Shown piece by piece: positions 3,833-8,279 of a stretch of DNA of 64,000 nucleotides. The stretch comes from Actinomadura sp. WMMA1423. Its GTDB lineage: Bacteria; Actinomycetota; Actinomycetes; Streptosporangiales; Streptosporangiaceae. The DNA lies in contig NZ_CP041244.1 in assembly GCF_006547145.1 (NCBI RefSeq), positions 2,232,001-2,296,000 on the forward strand, given 5' to 3'. Within the stretch, counting starts at the first letter, position 1. Each line of letters starts with the position of its first letter. The translations under genes and the position numbers were made by a program. The notes below the pieces were generated by a model. The model did not search any database. It was not told where the DNA came from and worked only from the letters and a program-made list of their open reading frames with translations.

Positions 3833-3901
3833 GTTCCGTCTCCCGCAGCGGGCTGGACAGCGGCCGCCGTCGGGGTTATGTTCTTCTCATACCGAGATGA
3901 A

Positions 3902-3921
3902 CTCAACCTGAGACTTACTCA
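3902..3921. promoter_or_regulatory. CTCA/TGAG repeated half-sites upstream of the Nudix regulator
   Basis: CTCA-ACC-TGAG-ACTTA-CTCA lies 26-45 nt before the ATG of the Nudix/winged-helix gene, giving two overlapping inverted repeats. NrtR-type regulators are known to bind palindromes upstream of the operons they control, often including their own. I infer an autoregulatory operator; no consensus was compared. Confidence 0.35.
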
Positions 3922-3946
3922 CCCCGAGATCGACGGGAGGAAGCGG

Positions 3947-4780
3947 ATGGCCCCCGAGCCGAGGCGCGACGAGAGCGAGTTCCTCGCGAACTACGATCCG
4001 CACGACTACGACCCGGTCGCCGTGACGGTGGACGTGGTCGCGCTCACCATCCGCGACGGGGCCCTCCACGTCCTGCTGGTGCGGCGGGGGCACGCCCCCT
4101 ACGAAGGGATGTGGGCGCTGCCCGGCGGGTTCGTCCAGGCGGGCGGCCCGCTCCAGGGCACCGACGCCGAGGACCTGCCCGACGCGGCCGTCCGGGAACT
4201 GGCCGAGGAGACCGGGCTCAGCGCCAAGGGCGGGATGCTCGGCCGCGTCCACCTGGAGCAGCTCGGCACCTACGGCTCCCCCGGCCGCGACCCGCGGATG
4301 CGCGTCATCTCCGTCGCCCACCTGGCGTTCGCGCCCGAACTGCCGGACCCCGAGGCGGGCGGCGACGCCGCCGACGCCGCGTGGGTCCCGGTGGACGCGC
4401 TGGGCCTGACCGAGTCCGGGGACCAGCGCCCTGGCACCACCCGCCGGCTGGCGTTCGACCACGCGCGGATCCTGTCGGACGGGCTGGAGCGGGCCCGCGG
4501 GAAGCTGGAGTACACGCCGCTCGCCACGGCGTTCTGCGGCGGCGAGTTCACCATCCCCGAACTGCGCTCGGTGTACGAGGCGGTGTGGGGCGAGGAGCTG
4601 CACGCGGGGAACTTCCACCGCAAGGTCCTGTCGGTGCCCGGGTTCGTGGAGAGCACCGGTGCGACGTCCGACCGCGGCGGCAGGCGCGGCGGCCCGCGCC
4701 CCCGCCTGTACCGCGCGGGCGACGCCCGCCTCCTGCACCCCGCCCTCCTGCGGCCCAGTCGCGAGGAGGAGATCAGATGA
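3947..4780 (+). CDS. NrtR-like Nudix domain / winged-helix transcriptional regulator
   Basis: 277 residues. Residues ~25-165 form a Nudix domain: GGFV ... RELAEETGL keeps the RExxEExG half of the Nudix box, but the first half is stretched by an insert (LQGTDAEDLPD), so catalysis is doubtful. The C-terminal third (LEYTPLATAFCGGEFTIPEL ... FHRKVLSVPGF) is the winged-helix domain of NrtR-type regulators, which sense ADP-ribose or related nucleotides and repress NAD-metabolism genes. ATG 3947 is chosen for the GGGAGG (3935-3940) 6 nt upstream; an upstream in-frame ATG (3878) lies in the promoter. Its stop overlaps (ATGA) the first ATG of the 54-bp repeat array, so it heads an operon with the J-pseudokinase, VWA and PurA-like genes. 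Its ligand is therefore a clue to the operon's job, but could be another nucleotide. Confidence 0.85.
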   Translation: MAPEPRRDESEFLANYDPHDYDPVAVTVDVVALTIRDGALHVLLVRRGHAPYEGMWALPGGFVQAGGPLQGTDAEDLPDAAVRELAEETGLSAKGGMLGRVHLEQLGTYGSPGRDPRMRVISVAHLAFAPELPDPEAGGDAADAAWVPVDALGLTESGDQRPGTTRRLAFDHARILSDGLERARGKLEYTPLATAFCGGEFTIPELRSVYEAVWGEELHAGNFHRKVLSVPGFVESTGATSDRGGRRGGPRPRLYRAGDARLLHPALLRPSREEEIR

Positions 4781-4938
4781 GCGGAGCGAACCGGGGGGCG
4801 TGGGGGGTCGCCCCCCCACAGGAGGCACAGATGAGCGGAGCGAACCGGGGGGCGTGGGGGGTCGCCCCCCCACAGGAGGCACAGATGAGCGAAGCGAACC
4901 GGGGGGCGTGGGGGGGTCGCCCCCCACAGGAGGCACAG
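4777..4938 (+). repeat. three tandem 54-bp coding repeats, each ending in SD + ATG
   Basis: Units 4777-4830, 4831-4884 and 4885-4938 are exactly 54 nt (18 codons). Units 1 and 2 are identical and translate as MSGANRGAWGVAPPQEAQ; unit 3 reads MSEANRGAWGGRPPQEAQ. Each contains a near-perfect palindrome (GTGGGGGGTCGCCCCCCCAC in unit 1) that can form a hairpin directly before CAGGAGGCACAG and the next ATG, so each unit supplies a fresh Shine-Dalgarno and start codon. ATGs at 4777, 4831, 4885 and 4939 are all in one frame; the first overlaps the Nudix stop. Two related units sit inside the MFS gene at 12723-12830. Confidence 0.95.
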
Positions 4939-5967
4939 ATGAGCGTCGGTGAGTTGGAGGAGGCGCTGGCGCGGGTCGACCGGGCGCGCGGGCCCGCGGA
5001 CCTGTTCGGCGACGACGATGCGGAGGCGGTGCGGCGCTACCGGCGGCTGGCCCGGCTCGTCCACCCCGACGCCACCGCCGGCCGGACCCGGGAGGCGTTC
5101 GTCAGGCTGACCTCGCTCTGGCGCGCCTACAACCGCGGCGACGAGACGCTGATCACCACGCGCCGCCACGCCTACCGGCTGGAGGGCGACCCCGCCGGCG
5201 GCGACCTCGCGCTGCTGTACGCGGCGCGTCCGGAGCCCGGACGCGAGGTGCTGCTGAAGATGCCGCGCGACCCGGCCGACGGCGACCTGCTCGAACGCGA
5301 GGCCGTGGCGCTGCGCCAGCTCCCCAAGGACGGCGAGGCCCGGTTCCTGCCGTACGTCCCGCGGCTGGTCGAGTCGTTCCGGCACCGGGACGCCGCCACC
5401 GGGACGCAGCGGCAGGTCAACGTGATCGAGGCGCTGGACGGCTTCCACACCCTCGCCGAGGTCCGGCGCGCCCACCCCGGCGGCGTCGACCCCCGCGACG
5501 CGGCCTGGATGTGGCGGCGGCTGCTGGCGGGCCTCGGCTTCGCCCACCGCGCGGGCGTCCTGCACGGCGCGGTGCTCCCCGACCACGTGATGATCCATCC
5601 GGAGGAGCACGGCCTGGTCCTGGTCGACTGGTGCTACTCCGTCCCCGGCTGCTACGCGCACACCGACCCCTCGGGCCGGGTCCCGGCGATGGTCGACCGG
5701 TACGCCGGCTGGTACCCGCCCGAGGTGCCGGGACGGCGGCCGGCGAGCCCGGCGACCGACATCTTCATGGCCACCCGGTGCATGACCGACCTGATGGGCG
5801 ACAAGGCCCCGAAGGCGATGCGCTCGTTCGCGCGCGGCTGCACGCTGCCGGCGCAGAACCGGCGCCCCGCCGACGCCTGGCGGCTGCTGGCCGAGCTCGA
5901 CGAGCTGCTGGAGCGGCTCTACGGCCCGCGCCGCTTCCGCCCCTTCCACCTGCCCGCCACCCGCTGA
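4939..5967 (+). CDS. J-domain pseudokinase
   Basis: 342 residues from the ATG after the repeat array (AGGAGG 5 nt upstream); translation from the repeat ATGs would add up to 54 residues. Residues ~25-65 look like a J-domain: YRRLARLVHPDA carries the HPD triad (42-44) needed to stimulate Hsp70. From ~75 to 330 the fold is protein-kinase-like: VLLKMP keeps the VAIK lysine (K107), E121 fits the helix-C Glu, but the catalytic loop reads HGAVLPDHVMI (Asp replaced by Ala211, Lys by Leu, Asn by His) and DFG is DWC (D230). It may bind nucleotide but probably does not phosphorylate. No membrane segment. Second protein of the Nudix operon, 12 nt before the VWA gene; I infer a scaffold or sensor role for the module. 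Confidence 0.75.
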   Translation: MSVGELEEALARVDRARGPADLFGDDDAEAVRRYRRLARLVHPDATAGRTREAFVRLTSLWRAYNRGDETLITTRRHAYRLEGDPAGGDLALLYAARPEPGREVLLKMPRDPADGDLLEREAVALRQLPKDGEARFLPYVPRLVESFRHRDAATGTQRQVNVIEALDGFHTLAEVRRAHPGGVDPRDAAWMWRRLLAGLGFAHRAGVLHGAVLPDHVMIHPEEHGLVLVDWCYSVPGCYAHTDPSGRVPAMVDRYAGWYPPEVPGRRPASPATDIFMATRCMTDLMGDKAPKAMRSFARGCTLPAQNRRPADAWRLLAELDELLERLYGPRRFRPFHLPATR

Positions 5968-5979
5968 AGGAGACAGATC

Positions 5980-6951
5980 ATGGGAAGCGGAAACTGGTCC
6001 ACCGACGTCTACGCCGCCCGCGCGAGCTACCGCGCGTCCACCGGCGCCAGCGCGTTCGCCTACTCCGACGGCGGCGCCACCTCCGTCCACCCCGACCTCG
6101 ACCCGCGCGGCGTGACCGCCCGGGAGAGCCGGGACTCAGGCGACCACCCCGAGTCGCTCGCGATCGGCGTGCTGTTCGACGTGACCGGCTCGATGGGCAC
6201 CGTGCCGCGGACCCTGCAGTCCAAGCTCCCCGACCTGCTCGGGCTGCTGCTGCGCAAGGGGTACGTCGAGCACCCGCACATCCTGTTCGGAGCGGTCGGC
6301 GACGCGACCTGCGACCGGGCGCCGCTGCAGATCGGGCAGTTCGAGGCCGACAACCGCATGGACGACGACCTCGGCAAGATCCTCCTCGAGGGCGGGGGCG
6401 GCGGCCAGATGCGCGAGTCCTACGAGCTGGCCATGTACTTCATGGCGCGGCACACCTCGATCGACTGCTTCGACAAGCGGGGGAAGCGCGGCTACCTGTT
6501 CATGATCGGGGACGAGCTGGCCTACCCGAAGGCGAAGCGGCGCGAGATCGCCGCGGTGATCGGCGGCGAGCCTGACGAGGACGTCCCGATCGCCGAACTC
6601 GTCCGCGAACTGCAGCGCAGGTACGACGTGTACTTCATCATCCCGGAGGGCGCCTACCATTCCGGCAGCCGCGAGCTGAAGGACTTCTGGCAGGGGCTGC
6701 TCGGCCAGAACGTGCTCTACCTGGACGACCTGGACGCGGTCTGCGAGACGATCGCGCTGACGATCGGGCTCGCCGAGGACGCCATCGACCTCGGCGAGGG
6801 CCTGGAGCACCTGGCGGAGGCCGGATCGGACGCCGGCGAGTCGGTGTCGCGGGCGCTCGCCCGGCTGGACGCCGCACGCGCCCCGGTCGCGGTCTCCTCC
6901 ACGCCGCCAGGCCTGGACTCCGCCGGCCCGTCCGCGACGACCCGCCTCTGA
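5980..6951 (+). CDS. VWA-like (von Willebrand factor A fold) protein
   Basis: 323 residues, cytoplasmic (no signal or membrane segment). After a Gly/Ser/Ala-rich N-terminus (GSGNWSTDVYAARASYR) comes LAIGVLFDVTGSMG, a DxTGS version of the metal-ion-dependent adhesion site at about residue 68-74, followed by alternating strands and helices to ~residue 265 (LFGAVGDATCD, YLFMIGDELAYP, VYFIIPEGAYH), typical of VWA domains that grip a partner through a bound Mg2+. The last 60 residues are Ala/Ser-rich. Strong AAGGAGA 12 bases before the ATG. It lies between the J-pseudokinase and the PurA-like gene (2-nt gap to the latter), so it probably assembles with them. Partner and function are unknown. Confidence 0.7.
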   Translation: MGSGNWSTDVYAARASYRASTGASAFAYSDGGATSVHPDLDPRGVTARESRDSGDHPESLAIGVLFDVTGSMGTVPRTLQSKLPDLLGLLLRKGYVEHPHILFGAVGDATCDRAPLQIGQFEADNRMDDDLGKILLEGGGGGQMRESYELAMYFMARHTSIDCFDKRGKRGYLFMIGDELAYPKAKRREIAAVIGGEPDEDVPIAELVRELQRRYDVYFIIPEGAYHSGSRELKDFWQGLLGQNVLYLDDLDAVCETIALTIGLAEDAIDLGEGLEHLAEAGSDAGESVSRALARLDAARAPVAVSSTPPGLDSAGPSATTRL

Positions 6952-6953
6952 CC

Positions 6954-8279
6954 ATGGGCTACATGATCGTCGTCGACCTCGGCTACGGCGACGCGGGCAA
7001 GGGCACGGTGGTCGACCACCTCTGCCGCACCGGCGCGCCCCCCGCGGGCCCCGGCTCGCCCGCGCCCCTCAGGGGCCGTCTCCCCATGGAGAAGGTCACG
7101 GCGGTCGTGCGGTTCAACGGCGGCGCACAGGCGGCGCACAACGTCGTCGCCCCGGACGGGCGGCACCACACCTTCGCCCAGTTCGGCTCGGGCACGTTCG
7201 TGCCGGGCGTCCGGACGCACCTGTCGCGCTTCATGCTCGTCGACCCGCTGGCGCTCGCGGCCGAGGCCGACCACCTGCGGGCGGTCGGCGTCCCGGACGC
7301 GCTCGACCGGCTCACCGTCGACCGGGACGCCCTGCTGACGACGCCCTACCACCGGGCCGCCAACCGCGCGAGGGAGTCGGCGCGCGGCGCGGCCCGGCAC
7401 GGGTCGTGCGGGATGGGCATCGGCGAGACCGCGTCCTACGCCCTGGAGCACGGCGACGCGCCGCGGGCGGGCGACTGCCTGTCGCCCGCCCGGTTGCGGC
7501 GCCGCCTCGCCGCCGTCCGCGACTGGTACCTGGCGGCGTTCCCCGGCGGCGAGGACGTCCCGGACGCCGGGGCCTGCGCCGACGCGTTCACGGCTTTCGC
7601 CGAGCGGGTGCGCATCGTCGGCCCCGGCCACCTGCGCGCCCTGCTCCGCAGCGGGAACGTGGTGTTCGAGGGCGCCCAGGGCGTGCTGCTGGACGAGTGG
7701 CACGGCTTCCACCCGTACACGACGTGGTCGACCACGACGTTCGCCAACGCCGAGACGCTGCTGGCCGAGGCCGGCGCGTCCGCGACGCGCCTCGGGGTGC
7801 TGCGCGCGTACGCGACGCGCCACGGCCCCGGCCCGTTCGTCACCGAGGACCCGGCGCTGACCGCGGACCTCCCCGATCCGCACAACGGCACGGGACGCTG
7901 GCAGGGCGCGTTCCGCGTCGGACACCTCGACGCCGTCGCCCTCCGGTACGCGCTGGAGGTGGCGGGCGGCGTGGACGGCCTGGCGGTCACGCACCTGGAT
8001 GTAGCGGGGGCACGTCCAGACCTGCGCGTCTGCCGCTCCTACGAGATGGACGGCGAACGCGTCGGGCGCCTGGAGACAGGACCGCCCGACCTGGACCGCC
8101 AGGCCGCCCTCACCCGCCGCCTCCTGGCGGCGCGCCCCGTCTACGCCCCGCTCGGCGACCCCGTGGACACGATCGAGGGCGCGCTGGGCGCGCCCGTCGT
8201 CCTGCGGTCGTACGGCCCCACCTCAGCCGACAAGAGGGCTGACCACTTCTGGACACCCATTGACCTGAGCGTTCGCTGA
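6954..8279 (+). CDS. divergent adenylosuccinate synthetase (PurA) paralogue
   Basis: 441 residues. VVDLGYGDAGKGTVVDHL (residues 6-23) corresponds to the GDEGKGK P-loop of PurA with the catalytic Asp (D13) kept; NGGAQAAHNVV keeps the catalytic His of the NAGH motif; GMGIGET resembles the IMP-binding GIGPAY loop. PurA joins IMP and aspartate using GTP. Here several motifs deviate, an extra Pro/Gly-rich stretch (TGAPPAGPGSPAPLRG) follows the P-loop, and the gene sits in a regulatory-looking operon rather than with purine genes, so a different nucleotide or amino acid substrate, or a signalling role, is likely. No good Shine-Dalgarno precedes the ATG; translation is probably coupled to the VWA gene ending 2 nt upstream. 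ATG 6963 is an alternative start. Confidence 0.75.
   Translation: MGYMIVVDLGYGDAGKGTVVDHLCRTGAPPAGPGSPAPLRGRLPMEKVTAVVRFNGGAQAAHNVVAPDGRHHTFAQFGSGTFVPGVRTHLSRFMLVDPLALAAEADHLRAVGVPDALDRLTVDRDALLTTPYHRAANRARESARGAARHGSCGMGIGETASYALEHGDAPRAGDCLSPARLRRRLAAVRDWYLAAFPGGEDVPDAGACADAFTAFAERVRIVGPGHLRALLRSGNVVFEGAQGVLLDEWHGFHPYTTWSTTTFANAETLLAEAGASATRLGVLRAYATRHGPGPFVTEDPALTADLPDPHNGTGRWQGAFRVGHLDAVALRYALEVAGGVDGLAVTHLDVAGARPDLRVCRSYEMDGERVGRLETGPPDLDRQAALTRRLLAARPVYAPLGDPVDTIEGALGAPVVLRSYGPTSADKRADHFWTPIDLSVR

Follow-up and report, generated by a model that had tools for sequence, protein, structure and literature searches.

A PurA paralogue, a VWA protein and a J-domain pseudokinase kept together in Actinomadura and in phages

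What brings a PurA paralogue, a MIDAS-type VWA protein, a J-domain pseudokinase and a Nudix/winged-helix regulator together in one operon? The four genes lie on the + strand at 3947-8279 of the window, by which we mean the whole 64,000-nt stretch of Actinomadura sp. WMMA1423 that was analysed (NZ_CP041244.1, 2,232,001-2,296,000, forward strand; GCF_006547145.1). The identities given to them in the original prediction are borne out by Pfam for the first and fourth genes and by family profiles and fold matches for the second and third (Table 1), and its pseudokinase claim was right, since all 79 bacterial orthologues have Ala where the HRD Asp would stand. Its further idea, that the operon may make or sense a modified adenylate and relay the signal via the J-kinase/VWA pair, is a conjecture. 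The phage-borne core, the predicted operator and the missing aspartate loop, described below, were not part of it. It knew of no named pathway with this gene set. Our search of the open-access literature likewise found no description of the set, and no described system that combines a neofunctionalised PurA with a J-domain pseudokinase and a VWA family lacking both Pfam matches (45 members) and relatives by sequence in solved structures; no biochemical data on any cassette member were found.

Table 1. Features of the operon and its upstream region (positions in the window)
Feature	Position	Strand	Description	Basis
Promoter (predicted)	3854..3882	+	sigma-70-type; TGGACA 3854-3859, 17-bp spacer, TATGTT 3877-3882	sequence reading
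Operator (predicted)	3886..3929	+	three CTCA-N4-GAGA boxes at 3886, 3902 and 3918, 16 bp start-to-start	survey of orthologues
Nudix regulator	3947..4780	+	Nudix domain and NrtR-type winged helix, 277 aa; predicted ligand-controlled repressor	Pfam, alignment
Tandem repeats	4774..4945	+	three 54-bp repeats, AGGAGG and ATG in each	sequence reading
J-domain pseudokinase	4939..5967	+	J-domain and pseudokinase, 342 aa counted from 4939	motifs, AlphaFold, fold match
VWA protein	5980..6951	+	323 aa, MIDAS D67/T69/S71/D178, N-terminal Met-Gly	alignment, fold match
PurA paralogue	6954..8279	+	441 aa, D13/H62 present, without TTGRxRR aspartate loop and TKLD lysine	Pfam, alignment, tree

Conservation of the gene set in bacteria and viruses

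If the four genes form a system, as the original prediction proposed, they should be conserved together, and a survey of co-occurrence indicates that they are. All four are present in 75 of 80 bacterial loci (the best 80 of 212 matching stretches), far beyond chance. The VWA gene was found in 88 of 200 genomes sampled within the order; the PurA paralogue (E <= 1e-100) occurs in 86 of these 88 and in none of the other genomes. In one of the two remaining VWA genomes the Nudix, VWA and PurA genes are fragmented and adjoin an open kinase frame; the other has only Nudix and VWA within the 11 kb read. In a sample of 296 genomes from the phylum the VWA gene was found in two, and these two also carry the kinase family, with scores of 501 and 426 bits against 60 bits for the next kinase match listed. 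VWA without PurA was seen in Rhodovulum (L089) and in G468.

Many large phages carry the core as well, and the cassette is common on viral contigs, where 295 matching stretches were found. Among the best 80 of these, PurA accompanies VWA in 78 (the exceptions being L121 and L160) and the pseudokinase is present in 66; no kinase was detected by profile in the other 14, some of which are clipped by contig ends. Some of the viral contigs may be proviruses, or bacterial contigs that were misbinned; this concerns L097, L099 and L100 in particular, which adjoin bacterial rows in the tree. The recurrent gene families near the viral loci gave no functional lead, the widest occurring in 14 of the 80, and no fusions among the four families were found in the bacterial and viral loci examined. 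As judged from these counts, VWA and the PurA paralogue are a nearly obligate gene pair, with the J-domain pseudokinase usually beside them.

The place of the Nudix gene is different, as it is the variable member of the set. In bacteria it lies upstream, downstream or divergent, and a Nudix match was found in just four of the 80 viral loci, so that it is better seen as a controller than as part of the core. Could the four genes be chance neighbours or hitch-hikers after all? The flanking genes, which are transport and metabolic genes with no evident defence island, are also conserved within Actinomadura. The four genes or the three-gene core stay together, however, in genera, plasmids and phages with differing flanks, and the joint gain and loss of VWA and the PurA paralogue refutes this explanation, which we consider to have practically no chance of being correct. 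The bacterial operon is most likely a phage-type module in a copy that has come under regulation.

What the three core proteins keep and what they have lost

Is the PurA-like protein simply a second adenylosuccinate synthetase, with bystander genes around it? It matches the Pfam Adenylsucc_synt model at 221 bits (cut-off 27), as an ordinary PurA would, but it scores 135 against a purA equivalog cut-off of 396 (NCBIfam), and a canonical PurA of 612 bits is encoded elsewhere in the same genome. In the tree the paralogues form a clade of their own (support 100/99), in which the bacterial members are nested among the viral ones. In PurA, Asp13, His41 and Gln224 (E. coli numbering) activate the 6-oxo group of the purine nucleotide. 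Asp13 is kept in 162 of 164 paralogue rows, the remaining two being gaps, and His41 in just as many, with Arg in one of the other two rows and a gap in the second. The aspartate loop T[TS]GRxR, by contrast, is found in none of 42 paralogues (nor in any of 18) versus 21 of 25 canonical PurA proteins, and the GTP-site TKLD in none of the 42 versus 24 of 25; at the latter position the Lys has mostly become His or Cys, while the Asp is kept in most rows. The 42 rows, 10 bacterial and 32 viral, were hand-picked. To judge by these alignments, the paralogue keeps the residues that activate the 6-oxo group, Gln224 included, but not the loop by which PurA binds free aspartate, so it is not a canonical PurA. 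This pattern, together with the near-strict pairing with VWA, makes an ordinary synthetase among bystanders a most improbable account.

A second possibility is a pathway to precursors of modified bases or nucleotides, on the pattern of PurZ. The paralogue would supply phage DNA or RNA with an N6-substituted purine nucleotide, and VWA and the kinase would serve as assembly factors. PHROGs and several phage records label it '2-aminooxy adenylosuccinate synthetase', the label that PurZ of phiVC8 also carries, and there is a distant match to the PurZ model (E 5e-7). Like PurZ and PurZ0 of the Z-DNA phages (PMC8342488, PMC12884076), it is a divergent PurA homologue borne by phages. All of 147 phage PurZ proteins have Ser in place of Asp13 (PMC12884076), however, and PurZ of phiVC8 and S-2L show this Ser in our alignment, whereas no Ser stands at that position in the 164 paralogue rows. 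The paralogue clade is separate from PurZ at 100/99 support in a tree holding two PurZ rows only. Unlike PurZ and PurZ0, the paralogue is carried by bacterial chromosomes as well, and has VWA and usually the pseudokinase alongside. Membership in PurZ is ruled out by the kept Asp13 and the separate clade, and a PurZ-like role seems to us unlikely. The Asp13 result also suggests that the label is wrong for these phage genes.

The VWA protein escapes sequence-based classification. The best Pfam match of the window's protein is at chance level (E 0.23), no Pfam match at E 0.01 was found among 45 members, and the family profile gave none at E 1 against PDB sequences. Its phage family is phrog_2971, to which PHROGs assigns no function, and PADLOC has no match for either the VWA or the PurA-like protein. 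The AlphaFold model nevertheless matches integrin beta I/VWA domains (Z 15.7, rmsd 3.0, 192 residues). A MIDAS motif of the DxSxS type is present, with Thr standing for the first Ser: D67 and D178 are found in 169 of 169 rows, and T69 and S71 each in 168. Position 2 is Gly in all 169 rows, preceded by Met in 166; these counts come from the whole-ORF alignment, as viral starts in one other alignment had been picked by their MG pattern. Residues 1-7 are coil in the model, at moderate confidence (pLDDT 73 over residues 1-10).

The kinase protein of the window matches the Pfam models DnaJ (E 0.0072) and Pkinase (E 0.0016) below their cut-offs. DnaJ was found at E 0.01 or better in 21 of 41 family members (best 2.2e-25), a set whose 30 viral rows had been preselected for HPD. 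The AlphaFold model (pLDDT 94.6) matches PknB (Z 24.8, rmsd 2.1, 227 residues), and HPD 42-44 is flanked in it by helices 27-41 and 50-66. Because of that preselection we drew the HPD counts from unselected rows, in which the motif is kept by 76 of 79 kinases from bacteria and 60 of 66 from viruses. Searched for as a plain string, it turned up within the first 260 residues in only 95 of 152 stop-to-stop ORFs, but upstream extension spoils this measure. The catalytic Asp of HRD is found in none of the 79 bacterial kinases, in none of seven isolate-phage and plasmid kinases, in at most two of the 66 viral ones, and in one of the 41 aligned members. By its aligned motifs the protein is a kinase homologue without its catalytic Asp that has kept a J-domain HPD, which sets it apart from the active protein kinases. 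The TerY-P triad consists of VWA, an active kinase and a PP2C phosphatase; here the catalytic Asp is lost and no PP2C was found in a scan of seven proteins, so that the cassette does not belong to that group.

Possible roles of the cassette

How might these proteins work together? We tentatively favour, as quite possible, a system of phage type, domesticated under a Nudix repressor, in which a neofunctionalised ligase related to PurA has a dedicated VWA/DnaK-recruiting partner. Using an NTP, the ligase would activate a purine-type nucleotide and attach it to some acceptor that is not free aspartate. VWA would be the dedicated partner of the PurA-like protein and would hold on to an acidic residue, either in that enzyme or in the acceptor, and the J-pseudokinase would recruit host DnaK, which may load, remodel or activate the complex, in a manner that we liken to MoxR motors serving other VWA partners. 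Repression by the Nudix protein would last until a ligand resembling NAD or ADP-ribose builds up, for example during stress or infection. Most phages would run the core without this Nudix switch. Since the kinase went undetected in 14 of the 80 viral loci, recruitment of DnaK may not be needed everywhere, and the J-domain may have another mode of action or be vestigial. Should the favoured model hold, phage genes annotated as hypothetical protein or as 2-aminooxy adenylosuccinate synthetase would gain their first function. The predicted operator, the near-obligate enzyme-partner pair and a phage able to grow on a laboratory strain make the system directly testable.

Known systems offer partial parallels. 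VWA co-chaperones grip client peptides via MIDAS, according to the excerpted text of PMC7159879. The MoxR-VWA systems (VMAP and the other ternary systems of that text; RavA-ViaA) likewise encode a MIDAS VWA next to a client or effector and to a partner that is driven by ATP or linked to chaperones. In our case no MoxR AAA+ gene was found among the four proteins and three neighbours scanned, which argues against membership; a J-domain pseudokinase stands in the motor's place, and the PurA-like ligase is the candidate client. Rki, a J-domain protein of phage RB43, acts on host DnaK as we propose here, though the abstract that describes it mentions neither a pseudokinase nor such an operon (PMC3486835).

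What would the acceptor be? One specific idea is that the PurA-like enzyme joins the activated purine nucleotide, through its 6-oxo position, to the free N-terminal Gly of VWA, or of a client held by VWA and DnaK. The invariant Gly2, the loss of the free-aspartate site with retention of the activating residues, and the near-obligate VWA-PurA pairing would all fit. We regard this as a long shot; a purine-linked protein would be a post-translational modification without precedent to our knowledge.

A different reading is that the module serves in an infection conflict over NAD+ and ADP-ribose, the phage core withstanding host NADases or ADP-ribosylation and Actinobacteria having domesticated it as an ADP-ribose-induced infection response. 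The NrtR-type regulator in bacteria would suit this, as would two phage operons that hold a Nudix regulator together with NadV, in the orders Nudix, VWA, NMNAT-Nudix, NadV, PurA, kinase (L110, the NMNAT being named by reading) and Nudix, NadV, VWA, PurA, kinase (L116). The kinase, too, has MkoA as its best match in the defence library (E 7.5e-13) and MAD6 in NCBIfam (5e-8). Yet among the 43 records of at least 85 kb, out of the 83 phage records behind the loci, NadV is found in 5 and NADAR in 12, not above the published background in medium and jumbo phages (22-33% and 48% in the excerpted PMC9503650), so that NAD salvage as a general role is rejected. NADAR does lie nearer VWA than chance over its 12 records (Fisher p 4e-4; 1e-3 with two related records dropped), and NadV in its five (p 0.035), too few to use. 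Early phage genes cluster, however, so that such nearness can be misleading; nor are the records independent of one another. One NADAR is 143 kb distant, and the Actinomadura flanks described above do not look like a defence island. The ARG-centred ADP-ribose systems share with our operon a Nudix-HTH regulator and VWA in one neighbourhood, as far as the excerpts of PMC9503650 describe them, but no ARG domain was found in the scan of seven proteins, which sets the cassette apart from them, and a PurA-like enzyme and a J-pseudokinase stand here instead. The link to NAD metabolism is only suggestive, and we consider the infection-conflict reading rather unlikely.

The Nudix regulator and its predicted operator

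The Nudix protein has the NrtR domain layout (Pfam NUDIX, 66 bits; NrtR_WHD, 44 bits, cut-off 27) and scores 105.8 bits against the NCBIfam NtrR equivalog, whose cut-off is 400. Its family suggests an ADP-ribose-like ligand; one NrtR relative senses arabinose, according to the excerpted PMC4666351. When the regions upstream of 42 orthologous operons are aligned, their consensus shows the promoter elements as tGgac and TAtGTT, and the predicted operator sits directly downstream of the -10. Two CTC[ACG]-N4-GAG boxes exactly 16 bp apart occur upstream of 65 of 78 orthologous operons, the window included, and in none of the Nudix coding stretches used as control. At the Rhodococcus, Tsukamurella, alphaproteobacterial, L110 and L116 copies no paired boxes of the actinobacterial type were found, only other palindromes or none. 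In this order, then, the added bacterial Nudix/wHTH gene appears to sit behind a promoter with repeated 12-bp palindromes.

The arrangement is like that of MsNrtR (PMC6800001), with Nudix and winged-helix domains, a palindromic operator and an autoregulatory position, but it differs in having no NAD gene in the operon, and in an operator of CTCA-N4-GAG every 16 bp in place of the GTTTTCGA-N7-TCGAAAAC of MsNrtR (PMC6800001). Control of NAD-metabolism genes was not found: none is among the seven scanned proteins, and in the genome paired CTCA-N4-GAG boxes without mismatch stand at this operon alone, one further site having two mismatches.

The gene junctions are tight or overlapping, as the spacing survey has it, apart from a single gap of 1335 bp; four strongly negative values in the survey reflect the choice of start. 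Gene-order counts were left unused because stop-to-stop ORFs distort them. In the window, the gap between the Nudix and kinase genes holds three in-frame 54-bp tandem repeats. The ATG of the first, at 4777, overlaps the Nudix stop and is a second possible in-frame start for the kinase gene. The 54-bp units are also dispersed over the rest of the genome.

Conservation and distribution of the four-gene set

Four co-directional genes of the Actinomadura genome encode a Nudix/winged-helix regulator, a J-domain pseudokinase (hereafter the kinase), a VWA protein of the MIDAS type and a PurA paralogue. The proteins were scanned against Pfam, NCBIfam, PADLOC and PHROGs, and in PHROGs the kinase, VWA and PurA-like proteins matched phage families: phrog_3043 for the kinase (2.5e-46), phrog_2971, of unknown function, for the VWA protein (3.5e-64) and phrog_1211 for the PurA-like protein (1.2e-75). 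A second, canonical PurA is encoded elsewhere in the genome (9.53 Mb, one contig), with a Pfam family score of 612 bits versus 210 for the paralogue.

Features of the cassette, with positions in the window
Feature	Position	Strand	Remark
Predicted promoter, TGGACA-17-TATGTT		+	upstream of the Nudix gene; from sequence
Predicted operator, CTCA-N4-GAGA boxes	3886, 3902, 3918	+	after the promoter
Nudix/winged-helix gene	3947-4780	+	first gene
J-domain pseudokinase gene	4939-5967	+	second gene
VWA gene	5980-6951	+	third gene
PurA paralogue gene	6954-8279	+	fourth gene

Do these genes travel together? The original prediction had named a gene-neighbourhood survey among its checks, and the set proves to be conserved as a unit. 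A scan of genome contigs with the VWA protein gave 212 stretches encoding a relative, and among the best 80 the complete set is present in 75; four of the remaining five end at contig edges, and the fifth, L041, is without the kinase. Junctions are tight, the commonest distance being -4 nt for genes 1-2 and for genes 3-4. Flanking genes at the 80 loci include an amino-acid permease (34), an esterase-like gene (26), BKACE (24) and MFS (21), nearly all in Actinomadura; in the other genera represented the four genes are constant while the flanks differ. Of 200 genomes sampled from the order, 88 encode the VWA protein and 86 the paralogue (E <=1e-100), every one of the latter among the 88. In G366, one of the two VWA genomes with no paralogue match at this cut-off, the Nudix, VWA and PurA genes are fragmentary beside an open kinase frame (236 bits), reflecting either decay or poor assembly; in G468, the other of the two, Nudix and VWA are present, and kinase and PurA were not found in the 11 kb read. 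In a sample of 296 genomes from the phylum, VWA occurs in two. The kinase family is confined to these same two genomes, where it scores 501 and 426 bits; the match listed after them reaches 60 bits, as ordinary kinases would give.

The earlier statement, that its author knew of no named pathway with this gene set, agrees with the open-access literature, where we found no description, most subscription papers being outside that search. A jumbo-phage survey (PMC7824862) mentions DnaJ proteins and MoxR-VWA pairs, and its text contains neither 'adenylosuccinate' nor 'PurA'; a passage of the Pinkcreek announcement (PMC9476963) lists the kinase and the PurA-like gene by name only.

Phages carry the core of the cassette as well. 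A search of 50,697 phage records at E 1e-5 gave VWA in 207, of which 188 are listed under Mycobacterium, ten under Rhizobium, six under Vibrio and three under others, and the PurA-like protein matches 227 records, a count that includes other PurA homologues. Mycobacteriophage Gizmo gp267-270 are kinase, VWA, a small ORF and PurA, in that order; in Vibrio phage pv27 and Rhizobium phage RHph_TM61 VWA is followed by PurA, and the kinase was not detected by profile at these two loci. The best 80 of 295 IMG/VR stretches encoding VWA include PurA in 78, the kinase in 66 and a Nudix match in four (two strong); in two, L121 and L160, VWA and kinase are present and PurA was not found.

VWA also lies on 21 plasmids, six of whose loci were read. 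The Nudix gene is downstream in Rhodococcus and Tsukamurella and divergent in Agrobacterium, Rhodovulum and Acetobacter, the Acetobacter frame being broken; none was found at the Variovorax locus. At the Rhodovulum locus Nudix, VWA and kinase are present and no PurA was found, so that this locus and that of G468 are both Nudix-VWA cassettes lacking a detected PurA, of which only the Rhodovulum one keeps the kinase. Immediately after the Agrobacterium vitis cassette, at L088:10316-16711, are genes for an AAA ATPase, DUF5682 and DUF4132, perhaps another conflict-type operon.

Descent and active site of the PurA paralogue

A tree was built from 76 PurA-type proteins picked for spread (25 canonical, two of the phage homologue PurZ and, from the cassette, 14 bacterial and 35 viral ones). 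The cassette paralogues form a single group (support 100/99), separate from canonical PurA (97/98) and from PurZ (100/100, only two rows). Bacterial cassette members are placed among viral ones at two or more positions, of which the simplest reading is that the cassette passed from phages to bacteria at least twice, a direction we infer from a midpoint root.

What chemistry might the paralogue carry out? Aligned with E. coli PurA, whose structure is solved, and with the canonical PurA of this genome, the paralogue retains equivalents of D13, H41, Q224 and T239 (E. coli numbering). Gln stands in place of N38, T129 has mostly become Cys or Val and K331 mostly His or Cys, and R143 is His in the paralogue of the window. 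The loop TTGRxRR, which in PurA holds aspartate, is missing from all 42 paralogues compared; its place is occupied by a conserved N....WQG.FR.G..D stretch, with the core WQGxFR in 32 of the 42. The arginines of the PurA aspartate site are the subject of reference 20 in PMC8342488. The paralogue thus seems to have preserved the activating chemistry and remodelled the site of the acceptor.

Identity with PurZ was ruled out by the Ser criterion of PMC12884076, Asp13 being present in 162 of 164 paralogue rows and the other two being gaps. The label '2-aminooxy adenylosuccinate synthetase' is carried alike by phiVC8 PurZ and by cassette phage proteins that keep Asp13, and therefore probably over-annotates the latter.

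The kinase, the VWA protein and a possible mechanism

The HRD Asp of the kinase is Ala in all 79 bacterial members, and among 66 viral ones the position is Ala in 31, Gly in 27, Ser in four and Asn in two. The beta-3 Lys and alpha-C Glu are kept in every bacterial kinase, and in 38 and 36, respectively, of the 66 viral kinases; the HPD of the J-domain is mostly retained in both. The predicted kinase model (pLDDT 94.6) matches, in its kinase part, the fold of PknB (Z 24.8), and that of the VWA protein (pLDDT 89.7) resembles integrin beta I domains (Z 15.7). Position 2 of the VWA protein is Gly in 169 of 169 rows, preceded by Met in 166, and in the model this N-terminal stretch is coil ahead of the first helix.

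The pair rarely separated is the PurA-like enzyme and the VWA protein. For MoxR-VWA machines it has been proposed that the VWA part captures a client peptide (PMC7159879). By analogy, the cassette VWA protein could be a partner dedicated to the rebuilt PurA ligase, and this ligase would join a purine nucleotide to an acceptor other than free aspartate; the J-pseudokinase would be a helper able to bring DnaK, and the Nudix gene the switch of the operon. We put this forward tentatively, as a possibility somewhat short of even; everything beyond a near-obligate partnership is inferred.

Regulation, the NAD link and a repeat

Box pairs exactly 16 bp apart lie upstream of 65 of 78 operons, against 0 in coding controls, and within the Actinomadura genome mismatch-free pairs occur at this operon only, one other site having two mismatches. 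On the Rhodococcus and Tsukamurella plasmids, by contrast, long palindromes built on the core TAGTC-N5-GACTA lie directly upstream of the kinase gene, possibly another operator type; these are at L086:5904-5930 and L091:5868-5894, in operons whose Nudix gene is last. MsNrtR of M. smegmatis is an auto-repressor released by ADP-ribose (PMC6800001), and its operator is unlike that of the cassette regulator. In 75 of the 78 regulators from bacterial loci the R-E-x-x-E-E portion of the Nudix box is intact, so that hydrolysis may be possible.

A link to NAD metabolism is suggestive. In phage operons L110 and L116 the core is accompanied by NadV and by a Nudix gene of the NrtR type, and in L122 a NadV fragment is immediately upstream of VWA. 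Of 43 phage records of at least 85 kb, NadV is in five and NADAR in 12, not above the large-phage frequencies published in PMC9503650; in the records having it, NADAR lies nearer VWA than chance (p 4e-4). One large phage contig (L171:7846-18796) has kinase, VWA, PurA, NADAR, NadA, NadK, NMNAT-Nudix and NadV inside 11 kb. NadV and NADAR of L110 and L171 were confirmed by Pfam models, and NadA (an apparent quinolinate synthase), NadK and NMNAT were named by reading and similarity.

A 54-bp tandem repeat at 4774-4945, each unit with its own AGGAGG and ATG, is in frame with the kinase gene, and two more in-frame copies are on the minus strand near 12.7-12.9 kb of the window. Its 20-mer core has 42 genome copies at up to two mismatches (reversed control, 0), often in tandem at a spacing of 51-57 bp, and at several of nine sampled genomic sites the repeat immediately precedes a gene start or coincides with it.
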